A stretch of DNA of 64,000 bases from an uncultured Erythrobacter sp. (lineage in GTDB: Bacteria > Pseudomonadota > Alphaproteobacteria > Sphingomonadales > Sphingomonadaceae). The DNA lies in contig CANMZA010000001.1 in assembly GCA_947502305.1 (NCBI GenBank), positions 496,001-560,000 of the forward strand. The letters are read 5' to 3'. The position numbers were made by a program, and so were the translations under genes. This document shows, one piece after another, positions 19,053-64,000 of this stretch (the stretch's first letter is position 1; every line of letters starts with the position of its first letter). The notes below the pieces were generated by a model. It worked only from the letters and a program-made list of their open reading frames with translations, did no database searches and had not been told where the DNA came from.

Positions 19053-19760
19053 CTAAAGTGCCTCCAGCGCTGCAATTAGAGCATCGAGCGAATCAATAAC
19101 CGCATCGCCGCCCAATTCATGCGGGGGCAGGTCGCAATAGCCATAGGCGGCCGCGATGACTGGGACGCCCGCCGCGCGCGCGGCTTTCACATCGTAAGTG
19201 CTGTCACCGACAAACGCGAACGAGCCGCCGCCGCAACGTTTTTGCGCTTCGAAAATTGGTTCAGGATGGGGCTTGGACAGGAATTTGCCATCTGCCCCTT
19301 TGCCCATCGAATCCCCGCCGATCACCGTTTCAAATGGGGCGATAAAATCCAATTGGGTCAGGATTGAGCGGGCGAATTCTTCAAACTTGTTGGTGACCAC
19401 CGCGACTTTGACGCCGCGTGATTTCAACGCCGCCACAACCTCGCGGGCATGTGGGTAGGGGGCCGAATGGACGGCGTTATGCTCGGCGTAATATTTGAGC
19501 ATGACCTTATAGAGCGCGCGGAATTCTCCGCCTTCCAATCCGCCCTCAAATCCGCCGCCGACACCTTTCTGCGCCTCGACCGCCTGCGCCAGCATCATTT
19601 TCGCCCCGCCGCCGATTAAATCCTTGCTGGTGCCTACCGGAACCGGCGCGAAACCGCCGATTTTCAGCGCATGGTTCACCGCCGCGCCAAGGTCTTGGAA
19701 TGTATCGAGAAGCGTGCCGTCGAGGTCGAAACCCACCGCATCAAAAGGAAAATCAGCCAT
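19053..19760 (-). CDS. gph: Phosphoglycolate phosphatase-like HAD hydrolase
   Basis: The 235-residue product has all HAD motifs: FDLDGTLLDT at ~9-18 (nucleophile aspartate), VVTNK (motif II), a lysine in SKPHPEP (motif III) and FVGDSTYDVKAARAAG (motif IV). The helical cap with IGGGAKMMLAQAV is of the Gph type, which removes 2-phosphoglycolate left by DNA repair. The ATG at 19760 is chosen because it starts directly at the conserved core; an in-frame ATG at 19790 would add ten residues. The gene is divergent from glmU with a 76-bp gap. Specificity among HAD phosphatases is uncertain. Confidence 0.86.
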   Translation of the reverse strand: MADFPFDAVGFDLDGTLLDTFQDLGAAVNHALKIGGFAPVPVGTSKDLIGGGAKMMLAQAVEAQKGVGGGFEGGLEGGEFRALYKVMLKYYAEHNAVHSAPYPHAREVVAALKSRGVKVAVVTNKFEEFARSILTQLDFIAPFETVIGGDSMGKGADGKFLSKPHPEPIFEAQKRCGGGSFAFVGDSTYDVKAARAAGVPVIAAAYGYCDLPPHELGGDAVIDSLDALIAALEAL

Positions 19761-50156: not shown

Positions 50157-53100
50157 GTGGGACGTTTGACTGCAGCAATTTCAGCGGCTTTTGTGGTATC
50201 GGCGGTATGCCTGACATCGGCATCGGCGCAAACGCGGTCGGTCTTGATCCGCGACAGTTTCCCAATTGGGAACAGCGAAGGCATCCTGTGCCAAGTGCAG
50301 GATCGCAGCGCCTCGAACCCGGCAAAACAGAGCATTTTTGATCGCCGCTGGGCCGTTGTGTGCCGCGACAATCCGCAACCAATCGCGGAAGTGTATGCGT
50401 TCCAAAACTTCGATGGCGCGGCAAAAGACGCCGTGCGAGCCGCGCGGCGTTTCCCCGTCACATGCGCGGGCACAGACGCCGGCGCCGGACCGGTTGCGGG
50501 CTCTCGCAAACAAAGCTGCTTGATCGATGATAGCGACCTTGGCTGGAGCCAGATTACCGCCGCTTCGGGTGATCTCACCTATTATGCGGAAGGGTTCGCA
50601 GCCTATGACGATGCGACCATCCTCGCTTTGCGGTCAGTGCTGAACAATTCTGTCGCCAGCGGCACAATCGACGTGGCTTCGACTTCGGTGTCGGACCCGC
50701 TTTCGTTTGCGCGGGTACAGGCCGAAACTTTGAAGCCTGAGCAGGCGCTCGCCGAAGGATATCGCCGCAATCTGGCGGGCGAATATGCGGAAGCGGCAGC
50801 CTATTTTGAAACGCTGCAACAACGCCTTGAAGGGGATGCGGACAGCGCGATCAATCCGGGCGAATTTTACGTCAATCGCGCCTTGCAAAAGAGTAATCTG
50901 GGCGAGTTTAGCGTTGCCAATCGCTTGTTCTCCCAAGCCGCCGCCTTTGGCGGGGATGACCCGATCACGGCGCGTTTGCTGCGCAATTTTGAGGCGATCC
51001 ATTTGCTCAACCAAGGGTTTGATGGGGCGGCGATTGATCGGCTTAATCAAGAGCTTGAGGGAAGCGCTGCGGGCGCGGCGGATGTCGATGGCGGTTTGGC
51101 GATCACCTTGCCGATTTCGGAACGGCTGAACCGCGCGCAGGAAACCGGTTTTCTGTTTGGGATTGTCGATGAGCTGAGCCTGACGGTTGAAGAGCGCGCG
51201 CAGATTATTGACGCGCAGGCTTTGCAAATTCGCGGGACCGCAAAACGGATCAATGGCGATCTTGACGGTTCGCGCGCTGATTTGATTGGCGCCTATGAAC
51301 AAGCCATCGCCGTGCGTGATGGCCGGGTGACGTCAATTACGAGATTGCGCAGCCAAGTCCTTGCAGACCTTGCACTCATTGCAGAACGACGCGGCTCGTT
51401 AGGCGATGCAGAGGCGTATTTGCGCAATGGTCTGTCGCTCGTGCAGGCGCAATATCCAGAGCGCCGCGCGGTCAGCGCGTTGGAAGCGCGGCTTGCGTCA
51501 TTCCTGCTGCGCCAAGGGCGTGATGAGGAGGCGATGGCCCTATATGGCAAAGTGGTCGAACGCGCGGTTGGCAAACGCAATGCAATCACGGGTTTTGCCA
51601 ATCAATTGAACCCTTACTACCGCGAACTTGCGAGCCAAGTTGAAGGTGATCCCGCCGCAGCGGATGCGTTTTTCCGCGCGACCCAAGTTCTGATCCGGCC
51701 CGGCGTTGCCGAAACGCAAGCGATCCTTGCTCGGCGGCTGAGTGCCAATTCGGACGAGGCATCGCGCCTGTTCCGCCAATCCATCGATCTGGGCCGGGAA
51801 ATCGAACGATCCCGCATCCGTTTTGAAGCTTTGGGCGCAGGTCCGCAGAATTCTGCTGTGCGTGTCCAAATGGCCGAATTGTCGGAGCAGATCAGCGTTC
51901 TGGAACGCGCTCAGATCAGCACGCAGGTGCAGTTGAACGAATATCCGCAATATCGCGCAGTGGCGCCGTCCTCGCTCGAACTGAGCGAATTTCGTGCCGC
52001 GATGCAGCCTGGTGAAGTCTATGCCCGGATCGCGATTGTTAGCGATGACGTGTTCATGTTCTACGCCGACCGTGACAGTGCGATGGCCTATCAAGTCGAT
52101 ATGAGCGCCGATGATCTGGACGAACAGGTCGACATCATCCGCGAGACGATCTCGGCCTTCGATGGCAGCCAATATGTGACCTATCCCTTCGACATCGCAT
52201 CTGCGCGCGGGCTTTACACCAAATTGTTCGCGCCGATTGCGGACAAGATTGCCGCCGCCGATCACGTTATTTTTGAACCCGATGGCGCAATGCTGCGTTT
52301 GCCAGTGGATTTGCTGGTTGCCGATGATGCGTCGGTTGCCTTGTATGAGGCGCGGATCGCATCGCCGACGGGTGATGAATATGATTTCACTGGCGTCAAT
52401 TGGCTGGGCAAAGGGCGCATGGTTAGCACGGCGGTTTCTGCTGAGGCTTTCGTCCAATCGCGCAAAGTCGAATTGTCGAGCGCGACCCAGCAATATCTGG
52501 GGCTGGGCGAGAATGCGCCGATTGGGGACGCATATCCTGCATCCTTCGATCAGAGCAGCGCCGATTTGGCGGCGGATTGCTATTGGCCCGTCAGTCAGTG
52601 GAACGATCCGATTGATGCCGCTGAATTGTCGACCGCGGCGAATTTGATCGGCATGGGCCGGTCACAAGTCATCACCAATGCCGGTTTCAGCGATGATCAG
52701 ATCAAAGCGAAAGAGGATCTGGGCAATTACCGCGTGCTGCATTTTGCAACGCATGGTCTGGTGACACCGCCCAATCCGAATTGCCCAGCAAAACCGGCGC
52801 TGGTGACATCCTTTGGCTCCAGCGATTCCGACGGTCTGCTCAGTTTTGATGAGATTTTCGAACTGAACTTGGATGCCGATCTCGTCATCCTTTCCGCTTG
52901 TGACACTGCCGGTGCAGCCAGTGTTGCCGCGACGCGCGCCGCTGGTGTGGCCAGCGGCGGCGGGTCGGAATTGGAAGGTCTGGTCCGTGCCTTTATCGGT
53001 GCGGGCGGACGCGCCGTGATGGCCAGCCATTGGCCAGCGCCCGATGATTTTGACGCGACGGAACGGTTGATGTCGGAAATGTTCCGGCGCGGTCAGACGC

Positions 53101-53318
53101 AGACGATTGGCGCGGCTTTGTCCGGGTCACGCGAAATGCTGATGGATGATGTGCAAACCTCGCACCCGTTTTATTGGGCAGGTTTCGCAGTGATCGGCGA
53201 TGCGGCGCGGCCGCTTTTGTCGGGCGGTAATGCGCCAGATGCTGGTGCTGGCACAGGCACGGATACGGTGGCCGCCAACACCGCGGCGTATCGCAGCAAC
53301 GGATCGGCAGCAGAATAA
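50157..53318 (+). CDS. Exported CHAT-domain (caspase-like) protein with TPR-like region
   Basis: The 1,053-residue product starts at GTG with AGGGGGA upstream and carries a cleavable signal peptide (cleavage near ASA|QT, ~24). Residues ~195-480 hold TPR-like helical repeats (e.g. NLAGEYAEAAAYFETL, RRGSLGDAEAYLRNGLSL). A helical region and then the C-terminal CHAT domain follow, with the His-Cys dyad H866 (FATHG) and C915 (LSACDTAG). The GGGSELEGLVRAFIGAGGRA, ASHW and HPFYWAGFAVIGD blocks support this. CHAT domains are caspase-related cysteine proteases. The stop overlaps the tpsB start (TAATG), so the gene is coupled to a two-partner secretion system. A protease with an export signal here could process the TpsA exoprotein; that role is inferred. 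Confidence 0.9.
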   Translation: MGRLTAAISAAFVVSAVCLTSASAQTRSVLIRDSFPIGNSEGILCQVQDRSASNPAKQSIFDRRWAVVCRDNPQPIAEVYAFQNFDGAAKDAVRAARRFPVTCAGTDAGAGPVAGSRKQSCLIDDSDLGWSQITAASGDLTYYAEGFAAYDDATILALRSVLNNSVASGTIDVASTSVSDPLSFARVQAETLKPEQALAEGYRRNLAGEYAEAAAYFETLQQRLEGDADSAINPGEFYVNRALQKSNLGEFSVANRLFSQAAAFGGDDPITARLLRNFEAIHLLNQGFDGAAIDRLNQELEGSAAGAADVDGGLAITLPISERLNRAQETGFLFGIVDELSLTVEERAQIIDAQALQIRGTAKRINGDLDGSRADLIGAYEQAIAVRDGRVTSITRLRSQVLADLALIAERRGSLGDAEAYLRNGLSLVQAQYPERRAVSALEARLASFLLRQGRDEEAMALYGKVVERAVGKRNAITGFANQLNPYYRELASQVEGDPAAADAFFRATQVLIRPGVAETQAILARRLSANSDEASRLFRQSIDLGREIERSRIRFEALGAGPQNSAVRVQMAELSEQISVLERAQISTQVQLNEYPQYRAVAPSSLELSEFRAAMQPGEVYARIAIVSDDVFMFYADRDSAMAYQVDMSADDLDEQVDIIRETISAFDGSQYVTYPFDIASARGLYTKLFAPIADKIAAADHVIFEPDGAMLRLPVDLLVADDASVALYEARIASPTGDEYDFTGVNWLGKGRMVSTAVSAEAFVQSRKVELSSATQQYLGLGENAPIGDAYPASFDQSSADLAADCYWPVSQWNDPIDAAELSTAANLIGMGRSQVITNAGFSDDQIKAKEDLGNYRVLHFATHGLVTPPNPNCPAKPALVTSFGSSDSDGLLSFDEIFELNLDADLVILSACDTAGAASVAATRAAGVASGGGSELEGLVRAFIGAGGRAVMASHWPAPDDFDATERLMSEMFRRGQTQTIGAALSGSREMLMDDVQTSHPFYWAGFAVIGDAARPLLSGGNAPDAGAGTGTDTVAANTAAYRSNGSAAE

Positions 53319-55132
53319 TGGAGCGCTCTATCTTGGTTTCGAACGCAGTTTCGCCGTTTACACGATTGGCTTTGGCCGCGAGTGCGATTGGGTTGCTGAT
53401 CCCCGGCACGCTGCAGGCGCAAGCGGGCCCGCAAATCGCGCCCACGCGCGAGGAATTGCAGCGTCCCGAAATAGAAGCGGAATTGCGCGGCGATGCCAAT
53501 GCTTTGTCCGTCGCCAGCGAAGTCGAGCGCGCGCCATGCCCGCTTTCTGCGCCGCAATTTGCCGATCTGACATTCACTTTTTCTGCGGCAGAGTTTTCCG
53601 GATTGGGCGATGTCGATCCGCAATTGCTGGTCCCCAGCTGGGCCGATCTCGTGGGGCAAGAAATCCCCGTTGCGGCGATTTGCGATATACGTGACCGCGC
53701 GGCGACTGCGCTGCGGGCAAAGGGTTATCTCGCGGCGGTGCAAGTGCCGGTGCAAACCATTGGCGAAGGTACAGTAAAATTCGACGTTTTGCTGGCGCGT
53801 ATTCGCGAAGTGCAAGTGCGCGGCGATGCGGGCCGATCCGGCGGCGCGCTCAGCCAAGTGGTCAGAAAATTGCAGGGGCAGAGCGTTTTTAACGCCAATG
53901 AAGCAGAGCGTTATCTGCTGCTTGCGCGGGATATTCCGGGGCTGGATGTGCGGCTGACGCTCCAACCGCTCACCGCAGAACAAGGCGGTGAGCCCGGCGA
54001 TGTCGTCGGCGTGTTTGATGTGTCGTATCAACCGCTGATTATTGACGCCAATATCCAGAATTACGGCTCCCCGCAGATTGGCCGTTTTGGCGGCTTGGCG
54101 CGGATCCGGATCAATGGCCTGACCGGGCTGGGCGATGAAACCATGTTCAGCGTCTATTCCGCGCAGGATTTCAACGAACAAGCGGTCGCATCGGCGCATC
54201 ACGAATTTCGTGTTGGAGGAGAGGGGCTGACGCTCGGCCTCGCCGGAACCTTGGCCTTTACAGAGCCTGATATTCCCGGGCCCAATGTGTTCACGTCGGA
54301 AACCTTTATCGGCTCCGCCTATGCCCGCTATCCGCTGATCCGGTCGCAGGCGCAAAATTTGACTTTGTCGGCGGGCGGGGATTTCATTGAACAACAGGTG
54401 GAGTTTACCGGCCAAGATTTCAGCGAAGACAGTTTGCGCGTCGGTTTCGCCCGCCTCGATTATTGGGGCAGCGACGAAGACAGCATCAATGGGCGCGGTG
54501 GGTATTCCGCGCTGGAGCCGAAGGTCGCCTATCAAGCCATGCTGGAGGTGCGCCAAGGCATTGATGCTTTGGGTGCCAGCCCGTCTTGCGGCGCCGGTTT
54601 TGTTAATTGCCTGACGCCCGGCTTTATCCCGCCCAGCCGCCTTGATGCCGACCCCAGCGGGTTCTTGGTGCGCGGCGATACCAGCGTGACATATCGGCCC
54701 ACGCCGTTGCTGGGGATGACCGGACGGATGCGGTTCCAATATTCGCCGGATGCTTTGCTGGGATATGAGCAATTTTCGGGCGGCAACTTCACCATTGGGC
54801 GCGGCTATGATCCCGGCGCGATTATTGGCGATAACGGCCTCGGCGCTCAGTTTGAGGTGTTTTACGGATCGCTACTTCCCGAAACCGCGGACAGTGCGGC
54901 GGTGCAGCCTTTTGTGTTTTTCGATTTGGCCCGCGTCTCGGTGAACAATGTTCCCGGCGACAGTGACCGGCTCATTTCAACCGGCGGCGGTATGCGCGTC
55001 GCAATTGGACGCCAGGCGATCCTCGATGTGACCGTCGCGGTGCCGCTTGAGCAAACAGATTTTGCCACCAGCAAAGGCAGCGTTCGCGCGCTGATGTCGC
55101 TGACCGTGCAATTGGAGCCGTGGTTCAATTGA
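53318..55132 (+). CDS. TpsB transporter, ShlB/FhaC/HecB family
   Basis: The 604-residue product is an outer-membrane two-partner secretion transporter. It has a signal peptide (cleavage near LQA|QA, ~35), one or two POTRA domains (~120-230, AALRAKGYLAAVQVPVQTIG and IREVQVRGDAGRSGGALSQV), and a C-terminal 16-stranded barrel. The barrel begins around YGSPQIGRFGG. The conserved loop-6 motif appears as IGRGYDPG (R495 in the VRGY position). It overlaps the CHAT gene by one base and ends 14 bases before the tpsA start. Such a transporter secretes one dedicated TpsA partner. Confidence 0.93.
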   Translation: MERSILVSNAVSPFTRLALAASAIGLLIPGTLQAQAGPQIAPTREELQRPEIEAELRGDANALSVASEVERAPCPLSAPQFADLTFTFSAAEFSGLGDVDPQLLVPSWADLVGQEIPVAAICDIRDRAATALRAKGYLAAVQVPVQTIGEGTVKFDVLLARIREVQVRGDAGRSGGALSQVVRKLQGQSVFNANEAERYLLLARDIPGLDVRLTLQPLTAEQGGEPGDVVGVFDVSYQPLIIDANIQNYGSPQIGRFGGLARIRINGLTGLGDETMFSVYSAQDFNEQAVASAHHEFRVGGEGLTLGLAGTLAFTEPDIPGPNVFTSETFIGSAYARYPLIRSQAQNLTLSAGGDFIEQQVEFTGQDFSEDSLRVGFARLDYWGSDEDSINGRGGYSALEPKVAYQAMLEVRQGIDALGASPSCGAGFVNCLTPGFIPPSRLDADPSGFLVRGDTSVTYRPTPLLGMTGRMRFQYSPDALLGYEQFSGGNFTIGRGYDPGAIIGDNGLGAQFEVFYGSLLPETADSAAVQPFVFFDLARVSVNNVPGDSDRLISTGGGMRVAIGRQAILDVTVAVPLEQTDFATSKGSVRALMSLTVQLEPWFN

Positions 55133-55146
55133 ACCGGGATGAGAGA

Positions 55147-58100
55147 ATGATGATGACCCAGACCATGACCGCAACTCGCACCGCCAACAGCGCGGCTCGC
55201 TTCAATCGAATGGTCGCGCGCCGCAATTGGATGGTTGGCTCCTCGGCAATTGCTGCCGCTGCTGCGTTCACTTCGGCCGCGACCCCTGCTTTTGCGCAGG
55301 CCGCGCCGCGATCATCGATGTCCGGCGTTGTGGTCACGGGTCAGGACCGGTTTGAGGCGGCACGCGCTGGATCGCGGTCTGGCAATGGCAGCGGGATCCA
55401 AAACCGCCGAGGGCGGACGGGCGCAGGGAGAGGCGGTATCGACCGCGAGATTCCGAGCGTTGATACGGTGCCCAATGCGCCGGTGGGCGCTCTGCCGACA
55501 TTGAACGGCAATCCGGTCGCCATGCCATCGCAAACTCAGGTGAATGGCGGCGCGGTGCCATCCATTCCCACGGTGCAGCTTGATCCCAATCAGGGCAATT
55601 CTGGCGTGCCGATCATCCGCCAAAGCGCCGAGCCAGTGGAGCGCGCGATCAATGCCGCGCCGGGCGAGGCGGGGATCAATGTCCGCGCCTTTGCGCAGTT
55701 TGACGATGTTCAGATCGATTTCACGCCGGGCGTGGCGGCGGATATCGTCAATGTGCTGGACAGTACGGCCATTATCAATTGGACGACATTTGATGCGGGG
55801 GCATCAGGGTCTGAGGTGACTTTCCTCGGTACGGGCGGCAATCTTCAATTCAATTCCTCTTTGTCGGATTACACCGTGCTCAACCGGGTGCTGACGCCCG
55901 GTTTCGACAGCGCGATCCGGATCGATGGCGATATCGAATCCACGATACTTGGCGGCGCAGCGGTCGGCGGTAGCATTTGGTTTTACAGCGCGGGCGGCAT
56001 AATCGTGGGCGATACCGGCAGTTTCAATGTCGGCAGCCTGCTGCTTTCCACCAGTGAGATTGACCCGTTGGAATTCTCTGCGGGCACCTTCGATGTGGCG
56101 TTCACAGGAACTTCGGACAGCGCGTCTGCGATTCAGATTGATGGCGGCGCGACTTTGCGCGCGAACAATTCAAATTCTTACATTGCTCTGGTTGCGCCGC
56201 GGATCGTTCAAGAGGGCACCGTCACCGCGAACGGTTCGGTCGCCTATGTCGCCGCAGAACAAGCGGTGATGACGATTGAAAATGGCTTGTTCGATATCTC
56301 TGTCACAGTCGGAACAGAGGATGCCAATGGTATCGTCCATTCCGAAACTGGGTCGACCGGCGGCGCGGCATCCACTGGGATCACCGATGAACAGGCGATC
56401 TATTTCGTTGCTGTTCCGAAAAATGACGCGATTTCGATGCTGGTCGGCGGCGCGATTGGTTATGATGCGGCGGCGTCAGCATCCATCAGCAACGGTCAAA
56501 TCATCCTCACCACAGGCGACCGGGTGGAAAGGCAGACGAGTACGCAATTCATATCGGGAATGGGGTTTGTTGATGTGTCAACGAACAGGGTCGATATGTC
56601 GGTTGATGGCGGCCCGGCGGGCGATGTCACGATTGAAAATATCGAATTTACCAGTGACACAGACATCTTCTCCGAAGGGTCGATCACGCTTCAGGCTGGC
56701 GTCACCAATGCCGCCGATTTCATCACCGTCGACGATGGCAGCGTCAATGGCGCCGATCTCAATTTAACCGCTGGCGACAGCGTCAATGTCAATGTGACGG
56801 CCAATGGCCGGATTGACGTCACCGGTTCGCTCAATATCGCGGCCGATGATGGTTTGGGCAATGGCGGCAATATCAATGTCAGCGTTGATGCTGCGGGCGC
56901 GGCCAGCGCGCTTGGCGGCGGCACTTTGCAGGTCGGCGGCACGCTTTCGCTTGATACGTCGGCGGCTGGGTTGGACGATAACGGCGATATTCAAGACAAT
57001 GGCGGCACCGGCATTGGCGGCGATGGGTTTGGCGGCGATGTTACGCTCGATCTCGCTGATGGCGGCGTGTTGGATATTGGCGGCAGCCTCAACATTACGA
57101 CGGACGCCAATGGCGGCGGCGGTTTGTTGCGCCATGGCGCCTCGGCGGCTGGCGATTTTACGATGAATGTTGGGGCCGCTACGGTTAATGTCGGCGGCGA
57201 TGTGTCTGTCGACGCCATCGGGCGCAGCGCCGGTACGTTTGACCGGAGCCTGACAGCAGAAGAGGGCAGCGATTCCGTCGGCGGCAATGTCACGATCAAC
57301 CTCACCGATGGTTCGTTTAATGCGGGCCGTCTGGCCGCGAATGTTGGCGCAGAGGCGAGCCTTGGGACTGACGTTTTTGTTGTTCAATCCAATGATGCGA
57401 CGGCTGGTGATTTTACGCTCAATGTCACCGGCGGATCGCACACATTCGGTTCCATCGACGTCACCGCAGCGACAGAATCCGCGCGCTCGCGCGACGGCAG
57501 CGGCGATAGCGACGGCATACCCGGCGGTGCCAATCGCGGCCTGACGGCAATTTCGGTCTCCAACGCAGGCACGTTGTTGTCGGTTACCGGCGATGTGTTT
57601 GTGTTCGCCGACACGCTTGGCGATACGAGCGCCTCGCGCAGGGATGTGGCGAGCGTCTCTGTACTAGGGGCCAATGCTGGCAATGGCGGCGGCTTTGTTA
57701 TCGGCGGCGATTTGATAATTGTCGCCCCCACAGAAGGCGGCGGCATTGGCGAGCTGACGCTGGGCGGTAATGTCGATATCTTTACTGATGACGGCTTGCT
57801 TTCCACCGGCGGTTTGGATGTCGATATCCGCGCTTTCCGCAATGGATTTTTCTCCGCTTTTGACGCGCAGGGCACCGATTTTGTCGGCGGCAATCTCACC
57901 ATAACTGCGACGAATGGCGGAACGCTCGAATTCAACGGGACCAGCGACCTGAACGCCAATGCCACAGGGGGCGCGACGGAAAATGATCCCGGAGCCGGCA
58001 TTGGCCGCGGCGGTACAATCACGATTTTGGCCGATGACGGCACGATCAATTTCGGCGGGGATTTGACTCTGCGTGCCAATGGTTTTGCGTTCGCCGGTGT

Positions 58101-61100
58101 GAATGATGCCGGGGCCGCGGGCCAAGGGATCGGCGGCACAGTCGACATCACTGTTCAAGGTGACACCGGCAATTTGATCTTTGCTGATGTTGATGCGGGC
58201 ACAGATGGCTCGTTTGAATTTGATGGAGAGGTCGTCAACACCTTCTTCATCGGTGCGGGCAGCAGCGGGGTCGGGGGACAAACCACCTTCAACGTGCTCG
58301 GCGGCAGTTTGAGCGCAGCCGATATCACCGTATCATCGGATGGCGAAGGCGGCCCGGGCGGCGAATTGCCCGACGGCACGGTCGGCGCGAACGGTTTGCT
58401 GACCACTGGTGACGGCGGCGCGGGAACCGGGGGCGAGGTTACTTTCAACATTGATGGCGGTGATGCCTCTGTCGACAATCTGACGGTGACGGCCAGCGGG
58501 CTTGGCGGGGATGGTGCATTTGGTAGCGGGACTAACGGTACCAATGCAGGTTCTGGCGGCGCGGCGGTTGGCGGGACGGCCACCCTCAATGCGCTGTCTG
58601 GTGATTTGACGGTCACTGACACATTGTCGGTCGAGGCGACAGGCAACAGGCTGCGTTCTTCGGGCCGCGTCTCTGGCGGCGATGGCGGCAATGGCTTTGG
58701 TTCGGCGGGCGGCGATGCCGGCTCTTCAGTGGGCGGCAATGCGGTGTTTAACCTTACCGGCACAGCCAATGTCACGGCCAATGATGTGATTGTTTCCACC
58801 CAAGCCTTTGGCGGTGAAGGCGGCGATTCCTTTGCAAACTTCAGCGGCGATCCCGATCAGGGCGGCGGTGATGGCGGCGATGCGGTCGGCGGCGATGCGG
58901 TGTTTAATGACACGGCAGGCAATATCAGTTTTGGCACTTTGACGGTGAATTCCAGCGGTGTCGGCGGCGTTGGCGGCGGCAGTTTCGGCAACACCACCGG
59001 CGATGCGCTTGGCGAAGGCGGCGCGGGCGGCAATGGCACTGGCGGTACGGCGCTGATCTCGCTCAACCAAGACGATGCCGATTCCAAAAATTATAGCGTT
59101 ATTTCCCAGGGGCAGGGCGGCAATGGCGGCCAAGGCGCGACCGGCGGCGCCGGCGGTTTTGGGGTTGGCGGAATTGCCGAATTGGCGATCAACAATGTTT
59201 CGGTCGTATTTGACCAATTGGCGATTGATGCCGCCGCCTTGGGCGGTGATGGCGGCTTTATCGACGGGCAAGTGGTCGCGGCAGGCGCGGCTGGCGGCGA
59301 TAGTGAGGGCGGCGAAGCGCGTTTGGTAATCACTGGCGCAGACGCTGATTTTCAGGTTGCGTCATCGGCCAGCCTTAGCGCCGGAGCGACCGGCGGGGTG
59401 GGCCGCGAAGGCTCCTTTAGCTTTGATGATCAACGCGACGCCGGCAATGGCGGGGCAGGCGGCAATGCAACCGGCGGATCAGCCTCGATCATCGTCAGCG
59501 ACAACGCCCAAATTTCAATCATCGCTGATGCTTTCACTTTCAACGCGGATTCGTCCGGCGGCGCGGGCGGCGACGGCGGCGACAATTTCGGTAGCTTTAC
59601 GGGCCGGCCTGGCACCACCAATGCCCCAATCACGTCTGTGTCTGGCGATGGCGGCGCGGGCGGTACGGGAACGGCTGGCGCTGTTGGTGTAATCGCGACT
59701 TCGGGCGCGGATGTGACGATAGCCGGTGGTTCTGGCCCACTCACCTTGTCGGCGATTGGGTCCGGCGGGAATGGGGGCGAAGGCGGCCTTGCCAGTTCAA
59801 GAGGAACCCAGGCCGGTAATGGCGGCGCAGGCGGCGCTGGCATTGGCGGATCGCCATTCCTGCGCGTCGACGGCGCAACCATTACGACCGACGATATCAC
59901 ATTTATCGCGCAAGGCGGCGGCGCTACTGCAGGCGATGGCGGCGACAATGACGTTGGCGGACCGTCCGGTGCGGGCGCGAATGGCGGGATCGGTGTGGGC
60001 GGTACGCCGCTGATCGAATTGACCGGCGGAATTGATGGCGAAATCAGCCTCGGCGACGTCACGATTTTGGCGAACGGAACCGGCGGGGAAGGCACGCGGA
60101 GTGCAGCCGATGGCATTGGCGGCGGCGGTCAGGTGACGATCCGCGATACTTCCGTCGATCCCACGGGGACAAACGTATTCGACATATTCGGTGATCTAAC
60201 CATCGATGCGACGGGCGATGTCGCCTCGGATAGCGGCGTGATCACGATCGCGTCGAACGGCACCGCTATTTTCGTTGATGGCGCTGTCACTGCGGACGTT
60301 ACGGGCCAGATGGACTTAATTTTTGCAGGTGACGCTCGCATCGAGATATTTGGCGATACGACACTAACCGCGACGAGCGGCATCAATATCATCCGCCCGG
60401 TTGCGGTCCCGGACAACACTGTGATCCGTACCGACGGCGCGTTTACCGCGCTTGTCACTGCGGGCGATTTTGACGCATCCGCCGATGCAGAAATTCGGTC
60501 GGAACGGTTCGTCTCGATAACCGCCGAAAATGTAAATCACGGCGCTATTACAAGTGAGCGTTCCACCAGCATTACCGCGACGAATGGCGACATAACCAGC
60601 AATCGCCTCATTTTCGCATCTGCTGTTAATGACGCGATCATCTTGACCGCCACGGGCGACGTGACCTTTGGGATATTGAACAACGTTGATGGCGATCCCG
60701 CGACGCGCGATGGCAATATTAATATCAATGCAGGCGGAAGCATCATTGGCGGCAGCGCGACCTCTGGCCAAACCATCAATTTGAACGCGCCCGGACTGGT
60801 CAGGGTCAGTACGGTGGACACATCTGCCACCAATATTGGCACAGTGACGATCAATGGCGGGATGATTGATCTTGGCACGCTCAACGCACGCTTTATCTCC
60901 AACCTCACCAGTGACACGGGCGATCTTGCGATCGACACAATAACCGGCCTCACTGATGTTAATTTGGATTCAGCAGCCAACATTATCATCGGCACCGCCG
61001 ATACCAGCGGATTTTCTGCTGACGCCTTAGCCGGGAATATATTCATTGGATCGCTAACCACGACGGGGGCGACTTCCTTTGTGCGGCTGACTGCTGGCGG

Positions 61101-64000
61101 CGATATCAGTTACAATTCGATTGATGCCTCGAGCCTCGCTAATTTGGTCGGCGATACAATCACAGGCGGTGATCTTGTTGCCGCTGCGGGTGTCGATTTA
61201 ACGGCAGGCAGCATCGACATTGGTGATACCCGCTCAACCGGCGGTTTTGTTCTGCTTACCTCTACGCTTGGCGATATTGTAGCCGGCGCGGTTACGTCTG
61301 ATAATTTGGGTGCAACGGTGGATTCCGCCGGATCAGCGATCGTGGGTGACATCACCACCAACAGCAACGCACGGGTGAATTCTGTCGGTGATGCGATTGT
61401 CGGCGATGTCGATGCCAATGGTTCCGCTGTCATCAACGCTGGCGGCAATCTTACCGCAGGTGACTTGTTCTCTGGGACAAACAGCCCGGGCATGACCCTT
61501 ACAGTCGCAGGCGATGCGGACATCGCCAGTGCGACGGCCAATGGCTTGCTGAATGTTAACGTCGATGGCGCGCTGAGCGGCGGCGACTTTGTTGGCCAAG
61601 GCCCGTTCAGTTTGGTCACAATCAACGCGGCGTCGGTGGATATTGCGTCTGCGCAATCGCTCAATCAAACGCTGAACATAACAACCAGCGGGGCGGCGAT
61701 CATTGGCAACGCTGTGTCCGGCGTGAACACCACGATCAATGGCGCGTCGGTCACATTGGATAGCGGCGATGTCGGGCAAGACTTGCGAGTCACGTCGAGC
61801 GTTGGCGATATCACCGGACTGGGATCAATCACGGTTGGCAGAGCCGCAAACTTCAATTCTGCTGCTGATATTGCAATCGGCACGCTGGAGGCGAGCACTA
61901 TCGCTCTGACCGCTGCGGGCGATTTGCGTTTCAACGGGCTGATCTCTCCCAATGCGATCACGCTCAGCGCCATCAATGGCACAATCGGCGCGACCACACC
62001 GGGTGAAGGCGATATCGACAGCGGCGGGGCCGTCGATCTGACGGCGGAAGCAATCGATCTGGGCGATATTGACAGCGACGGTTCGATCACCGCCGATGCA
62101 AGTGCGGGCGATGCCAGTTTTGGCGCGCTGACGGCGGGCACATTCATCACTATCGACGCCAAAGGCAGCCCAAGCGTCGAAAGCGTCACCAGCGGCGGCA
62201 ACGTCACGCTGACGGGTGCCTCAATCGCCCTGGATGGCGGCGATATTGGCGGCGATTTGGTTCTGGATGCACAAGACGGCGACATCACGCTGGCGTTTGA
62301 CGGGACGCAGCAATTGCTTGTCGCAGGCAATGCAAGTTTCGACGCCACTGGCGATATGAGTGTGACGCATACGAACAATGATGCGGGCACTGTGTCGATT
62401 GATGTTGGTGCGCCATTCCGGATTGATGTCGGCGGTGCGTTCAATTCTGCGCCCGGTTCAATCGTCAGTTCCGGCAGCGAATTGGTGATCACGACCGGCG
62501 GCGATCTTACCGCAGATGATTTGCGCGCGGAGGCGGCGATTGATTTGGGCGCTGGCGGCAATGTCTTGCTCAACAATGCGGTCGCCACTGGTCCGCAAGG
62601 CATCAGCAATCTGCGCGGTATCACGATCCGTGCTGGCCTGTTCGATCTGGGATCCGGTCTGACGGTGTTCGACAACATCGCCAGCGCGACGATCACCGGC
62701 GATGTCAGCTCTTATGCCGATATCAATGTCACCGCTGGCGGCAATGCTGTCTTTGCGGCGGGATCGGTCACGGCGGCGGACAATTCGCTGACGGTGAACA
62801 CCGGCGATGATATTATCGTAGAGGCAGGGGCGCTGTTGTCCTCTGCAAACAATCCGACCGATGCGATTGACCCGCTCAATCCGTTTGAAGGCGGCCCAAA
62901 TCTGACATTGAATGCGGGCGGCGAACAAAACCTGCTGTCGCTCCCTGCAACGCCGATTGCCTCATTGGTGATGGACGGCACTTTGGATGCCAATGATGGC
63001 GCGATTATCCTGCTGGGTAACGCGATTCAGGGGCTGGATAGCACTCTCATCGCAGGCTCCATCAGCGCCGATATCGTTGATGCGCCGCCGGGGGATATGG
63101 GCCTCAGCGATGATGACGGCTTGCTCAGTAAACCTTGCGTTGAGGGGATCATCTGCCTTGGCGACATGACGGCGACGGGCCGGATCGCAATTGGTCAAAA
63201 TTCAAACAATGATGTCATCCAATTGTTCGTCCAACAGGCAACCATAAGCGCGACCGATATTCTGATCACCACGCGCAATGATATTGTCATGGGCACCAAT
63301 GGGATCGACACCCAATTGAACGCGACGGGCACATTCAGCGCCACCAGCAACACCGGCAATGTCGATCTGCGTGATGCCTCAATCGCGGCGGATCAAATCT
63401 TGATCGACGCCGCGGGCAGCGTGCTGGGCACAGGCGTCCTGACCAGCGCGAATGATATCGGGATCACGGTTGGCGATTCCATCATTGTGGGCGGCATTGT
63501 GACCGATGGTGAGTTAACTCAAATTGCCGATGTGGGCGGCCCGGCAGAAGGGTTCTATTCCGTCGATGGCGATTTCATTGCGGGCATCTATTCGCAGGGG
63601 TCCGCCGATATCGATCTGTTCGCGGGCGGCATTATCGACATTGGCCAAGCAGATTCGCCCGACAACATCACATTGAGCGCGCTTGATGTGTTCCTCGGCC
63701 TTGCCAGCGTGCCGGGCGAGATATCCATCGATGGCGGATCTATTGGGTTCGACTCGCTTGATGCGGGCAGCGCAATTTCGCTGTCTGGCGGCGGCGTGTT
63801 TGGCGGCGATTTGTTCTCTGGCAATATTTCTGTCGATGGTGATCAGATTGATATTGGCGATGTTGACGCCGCCGATACGGCCTCGATCAGCGGCACGTCG
63901 ATCGCGGTGCGCAATGTTATCGCGACCGATATTGATTTGAGCAGCGGTTCGGACATTTTGTTCGACAGCCTGACATCGACAAATGCGATCAACCTCAACG
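55147..64000 (+). CDS. Giant TpsA-like filamentous exoprotein (3' truncated by window)
   Basis: A continuous frame from the triple ATG at 55147 (GAGAG upstream) has no stop to the end of the window, giving at least 2,951 codons. Residues ~1-50 form a long signal region with a basic n-region of ~28 residues (cleavage near AFA|QA), resembling extended signal regions of type V proteins. A TPS-like domain follows (~175-305): INWTTFD, LNRVLTPGF, then IIVGDTGSFNVGSLLLST where the usual NPNG reads SAGG. Residues ~520-1,040 are beta-strand repeats. Residues ~1,040-1,660 are Gly-rich modules (GGxGG). From ~1,660 on, GDI/Asp-rich beta-helix repeats continue to the edge. It is probably secreted by the adjacent TpsB to the cell surface; the function is unknown. 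Confidence 0.93.
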   Translation, partial: MMMTQTMTATRTANSAARFNRMVARRNWMVGSSAIAAAAAFTSAATPAFAQAAPRSSMSGVVVTGQDRFEAARAGSRSGNGSGIQNRRGRTGAGRGGIDREIPSVDTVPNAPVGALPTLNGNPVAMPSQTQVNGGAVPSIPTVQLDPNQGNSGVPIIRQSAEPVERAINAAPGEAGINVRAFAQFDDVQIDFTPGVAADIVNVLDSTAIINWTTFDAGASGSEVTFLGTGGNLQFNSSLSDYTVLNRVLTPGFDSAIRIDGDIESTILGGAAVGGSIWFYSAGGIIVGDTGSFNVGSLLLSTSEIDPLEFSAGTFDVAFTGTSDSASAIQIDGGATLRANNSNSYIALVAPRIVQEGTVTANGSVAYVAAEQAVMTIENGLFDISVTVGTEDANGIVHSETGSTGGAASTGITDEQAIYFVAVPKNDAISMLVGGAIGYDAAASASISNGQIILTTGDRVERQTSTQFISGMGFVDVSTNRVDMSVDGGPAGDVTIENIEFTSDTDIFSEGSITLQAGVTNAADFITVDDGSVNGADLNLTAGDSVNVNVTANGRIDVTGSLNIAADDGLGNGGNINVSVDAAGAASALGGGTLQVGGTLSLDTSAAGLDDNGDIQDNGGTGIGGDGFGGDVTLDLADGGVLDIGGSLNITTDANGGGGLLRHGASAAGDFTMNVGAATVNVGGDVSVDAIGRSAGTFDRSLTAEEGSDSVGGNVTINLTDGSFNAGRLAANVGAEASLGTDVFVVQSNDATAGDFTLNVTGGSHTFGSIDVTAATESARSRDGSGDSDGIPGGANRGLTAISVSNAGTLLSVTGDVFVFADTLGDTSASRRDVASVSVLGANAGNGGGFVIGGDLIIVAPTEGGGIGELTLGGNVDIFTDDGLLSTGGLDVDIRAFRNGFFSAFDAQGTDFVGGNLTITATNGGTLEFNGTSDLNANATGGATENDPGAGIGRGGTITILADDGTINFGGDLTLRANGFAFAGVNDAGAAGQGIGGTVDITVQGDTGNLIFADVDAGTDGSFEFDGEVVNTFFIGAGSSGVGGQTTFNVLGGSLSAADITVSSDGEGGPGGELPDGTVGANGLLTTGDGGAGTGGEVTFNIDGGDASVDNLTVTASGLGGDGAFGSGTNGTNAGSGGAAVGGTATLNALSGDLTVTDTLSVEATGNRLRSSGRVSGGDGGNGFGSAGGDAGSSVGGNAVFNLTGTANVTANDVIVSTQAFGGEGGDSFANFSGDPDQGGGDGGDAVGGDAVFNDTAGNISFGTLTVNSSGVGGVGGGSFGNTTGDALGEGGAGGNGTGGTALISLNQDDADSKNYSVISQGQGGNGGQGATGGAGGFGVGGIAELAINNVSVVFDQLAIDAAALGGDGGFIDGQVVAAGAAGGDSEGGEARLVITGADADFQVASSASLSAGATGGVGREGSFSFDDQRDAGNGGAGGNATGGSASIIVSDNAQISIIADAFTFNADSSGGAGGDGGDNFGSFTGRPGTTNAPITSVSGDGGAGGTGTAGAVGVIATSGADVTIAGGSGPLTLSAIGSGGNGGEGGLASSRGTQAGNGGAGGAGIGGSPFLRVDGATITTDDITFIAQGGGATAGDGGDNDVGGPSGAGANGGIGVGGTPLIELTGGIDGEISLGDVTILANGTGGEGTRSAADGIGGGGQVTIRDTSVDPTGTNVFDIFGDLTIDATGDVASDSGVITIASNGTAIFVDGAVTADVTGQMDLIFAGDARIEIFGDTTLTATSGINIIRPVAVPDNTVIRTDGAFTALVTAGDFDASADAEIRSERFVSITAENVNHGAITSERSTSITATNGDITSNRLIFASAVNDAIILTATGDVTFGILNNVDGDPATRDGNININAGGSIIGGSATSGQTINLNAPGLVRVSTVDTSATNIGTVTINGGMIDLGTLNARFISNLTSDTGDLAIDTITGLTDVNLDSAANIIIGTADTSGFSADALAGNIFIGSLTTTGATSFVRLTAGGDISYNSIDASSLANLVGDTITGGDLVAAAGVDLTAGSIDIGDTRSTGGFVLLTSTLGDIVAGAVTSDNLGATVDSAGSAIVGDITTNSNARVNSVGDAIVGDVDANGSAVINAGGNLTAGDLFSGTNSPGMTLTVAGDADIASATANGLLNVNVDGALSGGDFVGQGPFSLVTINAASVDIASAQSLNQTLNITTSGAAIIGNAVSGVNTTINGASVTLDSGDVGQDLRVTSSVGDITGLGSITVGRAANFNSAADIAIGTLEASTIALTAAGDLRFNGLISPNAITLSAINGTIGATTPGEGDIDSGGAVDLTAEAIDLGDIDSDGSITADASAGDASFGALTAGTFITIDAKGSPSVESVTSGGNVTLTGASIALDGGDIGGDLVLDAQDGDITLAFDGTQQLLVAGNASFDATGDMSVTHTNNDAGTVSIDVGAPFRIDVGGAFNSAPGSIVSSGSELVITTGGDLTADDLRAEAAIDLGAGGNVLLNNAVATGPQGISNLRGITIRAGLFDLGSGLTVFDNIASATITGDVSSYADINVTAGGNAVFAAGSVTAADNSLTVNTGDDIIVEAGALLSSANNPTDAIDPLNPFEGGPNLTLNAGGEQNLLSLPATPIASLVMDGTLDANDGAIILLGNAIQGLDSTLIAGSISADIVDAPPGDMGLSDDDGLLSKPCVEGIICLGDMTATGRIAIGQNSNNDVIQLFVQQATISATDILITTRNDIVMGTNGIDTQLNATGTFSATSNTGNVDLRDASIAADQILIDAAGSVLGTGVLTSANDIGITVGDSIIVGGIVTDGELTQIADVGGPAEGFYSVDGDFIAGIYSQGSADIDLFAGGIIDIGQADSPDNITLSALDVFLGLASVPGEISIDGGSIGFDSLDAGSAISLSGGGVFGGDLFSGNISVDGDQIDIGDVDAADTASISGTSIAVRNVIATDIDLSSGSDILFDSLTSTNAINLN

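Follow-up and report, generated by a model that had tools for sequence, protein, structure and literature searches.

The window analysed here, a stretch of 64,000 nucleotides from an uncultured Erythrobacter sp., carries a gene for an apparently exported CHAT (caspase-like) protein directly followed by the two genes of a two-partner secretion (TPS) system, which raises the question of whether the three genes belong together and, if so, on what the CHAT protein acts.

The CHAT gene and the TPS pair of the window

The CHAT gene occupies positions 50157 to 53318 of the plus strand, on which all features of the window described below are located. It starts with GTG and encodes a protein of 1053 residues that the open reading frame, PF12770 and a structure model together depict as an exported TPR-CHAT cysteine-protease-like protein; its closest named relatives are from Erythrobacter (82 percent identity), and a promoter scan 5' of the gene found none. 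By profile search, the CHAT domain covers residues 682 to 1015 (52200-53201; PF12770, 3.8e-48, 164.8 bits against a curated cut-off of 24). It contains the motifs HFATH866G and LSAC915DT, whose predicted catalytic residues His866 (codon 52752-52754) and Cys915 (codon 52899-52901) are unchanged in all 66 aligned relatives, in agreement with the preliminary description of this locus, which had reported an intact dyad at these two residues. That description had also credited the protein with a signal peptide, and the N-terminus, MGRLTAAISAAFVVSAVCLTSASA followed by QT, was indeed judged by inspection to be of the Sec type (residues 1-24, 50157-50228; predicted cleavage between ASA and QT), while a simple rule recognised a signal-peptide-like start in 76 of 81 linked CHAT relatives. 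The following beta domain (50229-50600; alignment and model, pLDDT 90.6) matches no Pfam family and bears four cysteines (Cys45, 69, 103 and 121) that are near-invariant in the 66-relative alignment, in which Cys808 and Cys876 of the CHAT domain are invariant. As conserved cysteines fit an oxidising compartment and signal-peptide-like starts recur among the relatives, the CHAT protein is very probably extracytoplasmic, as originally proposed.

The structure model, built from the alignment of 66 relatives (mean pLDDT 82.8, pTM 0.76), shows an N-domain of beta structure, followed by an alpha solenoid and, at the C-terminus, the CHAT domain. The solenoid (about residues 148 to 615; 50601-52001) bears out the TPR-like helices claimed earlier, although their trace in the sequence itself is weak (TPR_12, 9e-4, under the curated cut-off). 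A sequence search of the PDB retrieved TPR proteins, for the most part kinesin light chains, whose TPRs residues 399 to 475 resemble; no structure of a CHAT protein was among them. In the model, His866 and Cys915 are each positioned at a strand, an arrangement known from clan CD folds. A structural comparison of its caspase-like fold gave matches to Csx29 (Z 26.9, rmsd 8.8 A over 498 residues), to separase (Z about 23) and to gingipain R (Z about 17). The first Foldseek match was DdvA (PDB 8rot; E 8.8e-11), which its PDB title calls a transmembrane anti-sigma factor, so that the earlier remark that CHAT domains are usually described as cytosolic holds only in part. For the N-domain, only weak matches to PsbP/MOG1-like folds were obtained (Foldseek E 0.005, best Z 5.5), too weak for an interpretation of its fold.

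The CHAT stop codon TAA ends at 53318, which is also the first base of the ATG of tpsB (53318-55132), encoding an outer-membrane TPS transporter of 604 residues with a ShlB barrel domain (PF03865, 8.3e-11) and a POTRA domain (POTRA_2, PF08479, 1.9e-5). The last base of the tpsB stop codon is 55132, while the ATG of tpsA begins at 55147, so that the one-base overlap and the gap of 14 bases that had been described are both found; an alternative in-frame GTG for tpsA at 55120 would overlap tpsB if used. The tpsA open reading frame (55147-64000), for a giant FHA-like exoprotein, is cut by the window end and extends about 3.35 kb beyond it to a stop at window-equivalent position 67353, the whole comprising 4077 residues counted from the GTG. 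Its TPS secretion domain (residues 205-376 of the ATG form, 55759-56274; PF05860, 1.7e-9) was found by scanning the first 400 residues and was missed in a whole-length scan. The window thus contains both elements of a TPS (type Vb) system, a TpsB with POTRA and barrel and an adjoining TpsA with an N-terminal TPS domain.

Association of CHAT and TPS genes across genomes

Conservation of this gene neighbourhood in sphingomonads had been suggested as a check on the link, and a search of 148 genomes of the order yielded 87 CHAT and 99 TpsB matches. Forty-two of the 87 CHAT matches lay no more than 14 kb from a tpsB, all 42 on the same strand, against about 1.2 expected by chance in these genomes. 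A same-strand TpsB was likewise present in 71 of 80 named loci collected by CHAT similarity alone (all Sphingomonadales by title, except two titled only Proteobacteria or Alphaproteobacteria), while in the other 9 the view is cut short by the end of the contig or by the length of tpsA; as the scan was seeded with linked CHATs, it shows TPS linkage for this CHAT subfamily and not for CHATs at large. Three gene orders were encountered among 81 cassettes, namely CHAT-X-tpsB-tpsA (36), tpsB-tpsA-CHAT (32) and CHAT-tpsB-tpsA (13), with the same partners kept in all three. The CHAT and TpsB distance matrices correlated with r 0.947 in a mirror-tree comparison not corrected for species history (permutation maximum 0.378), and paralogous cassettes within one genome retain their own CHAT and TpsB partners, a fidelity that species history alone does not explain. 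Chance adjacency is thus rejected on the grounds of distance, of strand and of tree agreement. We therefore regard functional coupling of CHAT with TPS as almost certain, and the best explanation of a pairing retained in about a hundred related operons examined is that the CHAT gene is a third core member of the TPS cassette.

The genome of the window itself contains five CHAT genes and four TpsB matches. Three of the CHAT genes are located in complete TPS cassettes: cassette A (tpsB-tpsA-CHAT), cassette B (tpsB-tpsA-CHAT, then a CHASE2-cyclase gene and a gene for 254 residues) and cassette C, that of the window (CHAT-tpsB-tpsA). The two CHAT proteins encoded outside TPS cassettes (961 residues, L016 9692-12577; 1448 residues, L017 6493-10839) are both missing the N-terminal domain. 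The fourth TpsB (L018 7272-13971; G000:C1 about 1949000-1956000) has no obvious TpsA; its neighbours are a protein with a FecR domain and another that resembles CHASE2 and c-di-GMP phosphodiesterase (EAL) proteins. CHASE2 genes also adjoin CHAT-free TpsBs in several relatives. A protein of about 255 residues, which bears a signal peptide, is fixed beside the CHASE2-cyclase in many cassettes (e.g. L013 16240-17004), sometimes in two copies. It had no significant Pfam match, and its homology to cyanobacterial DUF928 was unsupported in a comparison limited to two DUF928 sequences (hhalign probability 0.2 percent).

Relatives had been guessed to exist in sphingomonads and cyanobacteria, and the distribution proved wider, including another alphaproteobacterial family and other Pseudomonadota. 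In the former, a cassette (L213) holds TpsB, TpsA (PF05860, 1.6e-20) and a CHAT 31 percent identical to that of the window over its full length; in the latter, the CHATs of two loci (L218, L219) are shorter and are accompanied by TPS genes and by a CHASE2-cyclase or CHASE2-kinase. TpsA, CHAT, DUF928 and CHASE2 genes adjoin on plasmid pANACY.04 of Anabaena cylindrica, and the arrangement on a Nostoc plasmid is similar. As a Pseudosulfitobacter CHAT is devoid of TPS linkage, the link characterises certain CHAT groups. Three loci (L067, L074, L077) hold, beside TpsA and TpsB, a second and shorter type of CHAT (764-821 residues, HLATHA motif). The gene order in L074 is CHAT-TpsA-TpsB, and the C-termini of the TpsAs at these loci do not resemble those that go with the long type. 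Two apparent oddities were discarded: the truncated CHAT of one genome (G093, L055), where the missing part is masked with N, and a TpsA-CHAT fusion in L212, where the long open reading frame 5' of CHAT proved to be an artefact in another frame and CHAT itself starts with what resembles a lipoprotein signal (LGGC).

The C-terminal tail of the linked TpsA proteins

The CHAT-linked TpsAs, 1456 to 4077 residues in length, have in common a C-terminal motif, D-P-V-[TSA]-[GS]-x-G-[ND], which starts 17 to 47 residues from the end and is placed after a Pro-rich or acidic linker. Examples are IDDPVTGAGNEDLW in the window TpsA, NDPISGSGNPALI in cassette A and DDPVASGGDSSLY in cassette B; linker and tail of the window TpsA read TDPLIDDPVTGAGNEDLWVSDEEECEEDDSCS-COOH, with the motif at genome position C1:563273-563296, outside the window. 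After removal of near-duplicates, 48 of 53 linked TpsAs had the motif within their C-terminal 90 residues, as did none of 19 TpsA-like proteins beside CHAT-free TpsBs, which are complete proteins, largely of other TpsA families (Fisher p 3.6e-13, related sequences being treated as independent). The exceptions include diverged forms (L048, L051, L091) and one protein without such a tail (L075). Because the expression was written after viewing the linked tails, the linked count is descriptive only, and the unlinked set and a genome scan serve as the tests. Its chance expectation in the tails was 0.46, and the strict form occurred elsewhere once in 148,551 residues. Of the four matches that the DNA form of the pattern gave in the whole genome, two correspond to the tails of the cassette B and cassette C TpsAs and two to short spurious frames; the motif codons of cassette A fall outside this DNA pattern. 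At the C-terminus of a protein, the pattern was found in this genome only in cassette TpsAs, and it was also seen in the L213 cassette (TDPVVTGTGSEEIW).

The motif is, as judged from these counts, a conserved CHAT-associated C-terminal feature and the obvious first candidate for a cleavage or docking site. The main confound is descent: the linked TpsAs may form one lineage that inherited the tail from a common ancestor, and the role of the motif could then lie in TpsB plugging or folding and not with CHAT.

The window TpsA (L014, open reading frame ending at 19354) ends, after the tail motif, with a Cys pair, CEEDDSC. This resembles the C-terminal disulfide anchor loop of HMW1 and HxuA that is held in TpsB (PMC5422565), from which the CHAT-linked motif is separate. 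The pair was dismissed as a CHAT-specific feature, being present in 10 of 53 linked and 5 of 19 unlinked proteins. Cyanobacterial TpsAs beside CHAT (L087 4297-8241, L089 2250-7295) have a different, TGRGGLPPSP-like C-terminal motif.

Function of the CHAT protein and known systems

The pairing suggests an enzyme that trims or releases the surface protein TpsA. As the best explanation, to which we attach an even chance, we propose a dedicated periplasmic cysteine protease encoded in the operon and acting on the TpsA tail; that the tail is the CHAT substrate we consider equally balanced. CHAT would be exported by Sec and would fold in the periplasm, its conserved cysteines being oxidised to disulfides. 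As is established for TPS systems, TpsB conducts TpsA across the outer membrane, N-terminal TPS domain first. Its C-terminal linker and tail, last in transit, would remain periplasmic, where CHAT would recognise and cut TpsA at or near the conserved motif. The cut would release or mature the adhesin, much as LapG does with the periplasmic tail of CdrA, and in cassettes carrying a CHASE2-cyclase this enzyme would tie cleavage to a second messenger.

The frequent presence of CHASE2-cyclase genes in the cassette, together with the regulatory nature of DdvA, makes a signalling role the strongest rival, albeit one that we hold to be unlikely. The periplasmic TPR-CHAT would then sense TPS status (TpsA engaged in TpsB, or its tail bound) and would cleave or bind the CHASE2 sensor domain, altering cyclase or kinase activity, with TpsA as the signal and not the substrate. 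This would suit a CHASE2-cyclase gene inside or directly 3' of many cassettes (between CHAT and TpsB in 35 of 71 scored, on the 3' side in 5), the CHASE2-cyclase or -kinase accompanying CHAT and TPS in other Pseudomonadota, the CHASE2 genes of cyanobacteria and the transmembrane anti-sigma factor DdvA as top Foldseek match. However, 31 of the 71 cassettes have no adjoining CHASE2 gene (7 of CHAT>TpsB and 24 of TpsB>..>CHAT order), and the CHAT with its dyad is retained in cassette A and the window cassette, neither of which has one. CHAT could instead be a periplasmic chaperone-protease that keeps the long TpsA secretion-competent and degrades stalled chains, the tail motif serving TpsB. A TPR solenoid such as the modelled one could bind extended peptides and the linked TpsAs are giant, but TpsA-like proteins of up to 3086 residues (the 19 controls) exist without CHAT and the tail motif tracks the CHAT link, and we rate such quality control as improbable.

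The clan CD C-terminal-signal peptidases PorU and GPI8 have a caspase-like fold that acts on a C-terminal signal, and CHAT might be a new C-terminal-signal peptidase or transamidase which recognises the tail motif of TpsA, removes the tail and attaches or releases the exoprotein at the surface. We think this quite improbable. PorU and GPI8 belong to different families and have different partners. If it were true, a periplasmic caspase-like fold would do the job of a sortase or PorU, in some cassettes under CHASE2-cyclase control. Least of all do we expect a secreted effector, in which CHAT at the surface would cleave proteins of prey or host, the TPS pair being its targeting partner. CHAT is apparently exported and the enzyme apparently intact, and caspase-like domains are known in polymorphic toxin systems, mostly as internal processing domains (PMC3482391). 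Against this very remote reading, the profile search found no TPS secretion domain in CHAT, the cassettes have no fixed immunity-like gene, and CHAT is conserved over its full length, its C-terminus not being variable.

Among known CHAT proteins, Csx29, the TPR-CHAT of Craspase (type III-E CRISPR), shares with the window protein a TPR solenoid and a CHAT domain with a His-Cys dyad. It is CRISPR-associated and RNA-activated, whereas the window CHAT has a signal peptide, a four-cysteine N-domain and TPS partner genes; no association with Cas7-11 was seen in the mapped cassettes, where the neighbours are TPS genes. DdvA resembles the window CHAT in fold and is described as a transmembrane protein; the profile search found no anti-sigma domain in the window CHAT, and its cassette has no sigma factor gene. 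CHAT genes have been noted near ECF54 sigma factors (PMC8999054). A literature search that reached few subscription journals or preprints found no paper that links two-partner secretion, (filamentous) hemagglutinin or CHASE2 to the CHAT domain, and several cassette genes are annotated merely as "hypothetical protein" or "CHAT domain-containing protein". The parts are of known kinds, and a protease gene fixed as the third member of a TPS operon appears to be undescribed.

TPS systems are described as two-gene machines with maturation proteases encoded elsewhere, the genes of which appear, according to a TPS review, to be absent from TPS operons (PMC5422565); CHAT would add a third core component. 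Cleavage of the tail, if true, would provide a natural substrate for an extracytoplasmic CHAT enzyme, and adhesin release in sphingomonads, perhaps also in cyanobacteria, would become directly testable. The maturation proposed here has a parallel in Bordetella, where the giant TPS adhesin FhaB is matured by the protease SphB1 (PMC5422565), although SphB1 is a subtilisin autotransporter with its gene outside the fha locus, in contrast to the CHAT gene within the TPS operon. In Pseudomonas aeruginosa, the periplasmic cysteine protease LapG cuts the C-terminal, periplasm-retained tail of the TPS adhesin CdrA under the control of c-di-GMP (PMC5422565, PMC4694147). Profile searches found its family (PF06035) neither in this genome nor in the CHAT protein: LapG is a BTLCP (PF06035) whose gene lies away from the TPS genes, whereas CHAT is a clan CD protein encoded inside the operon.
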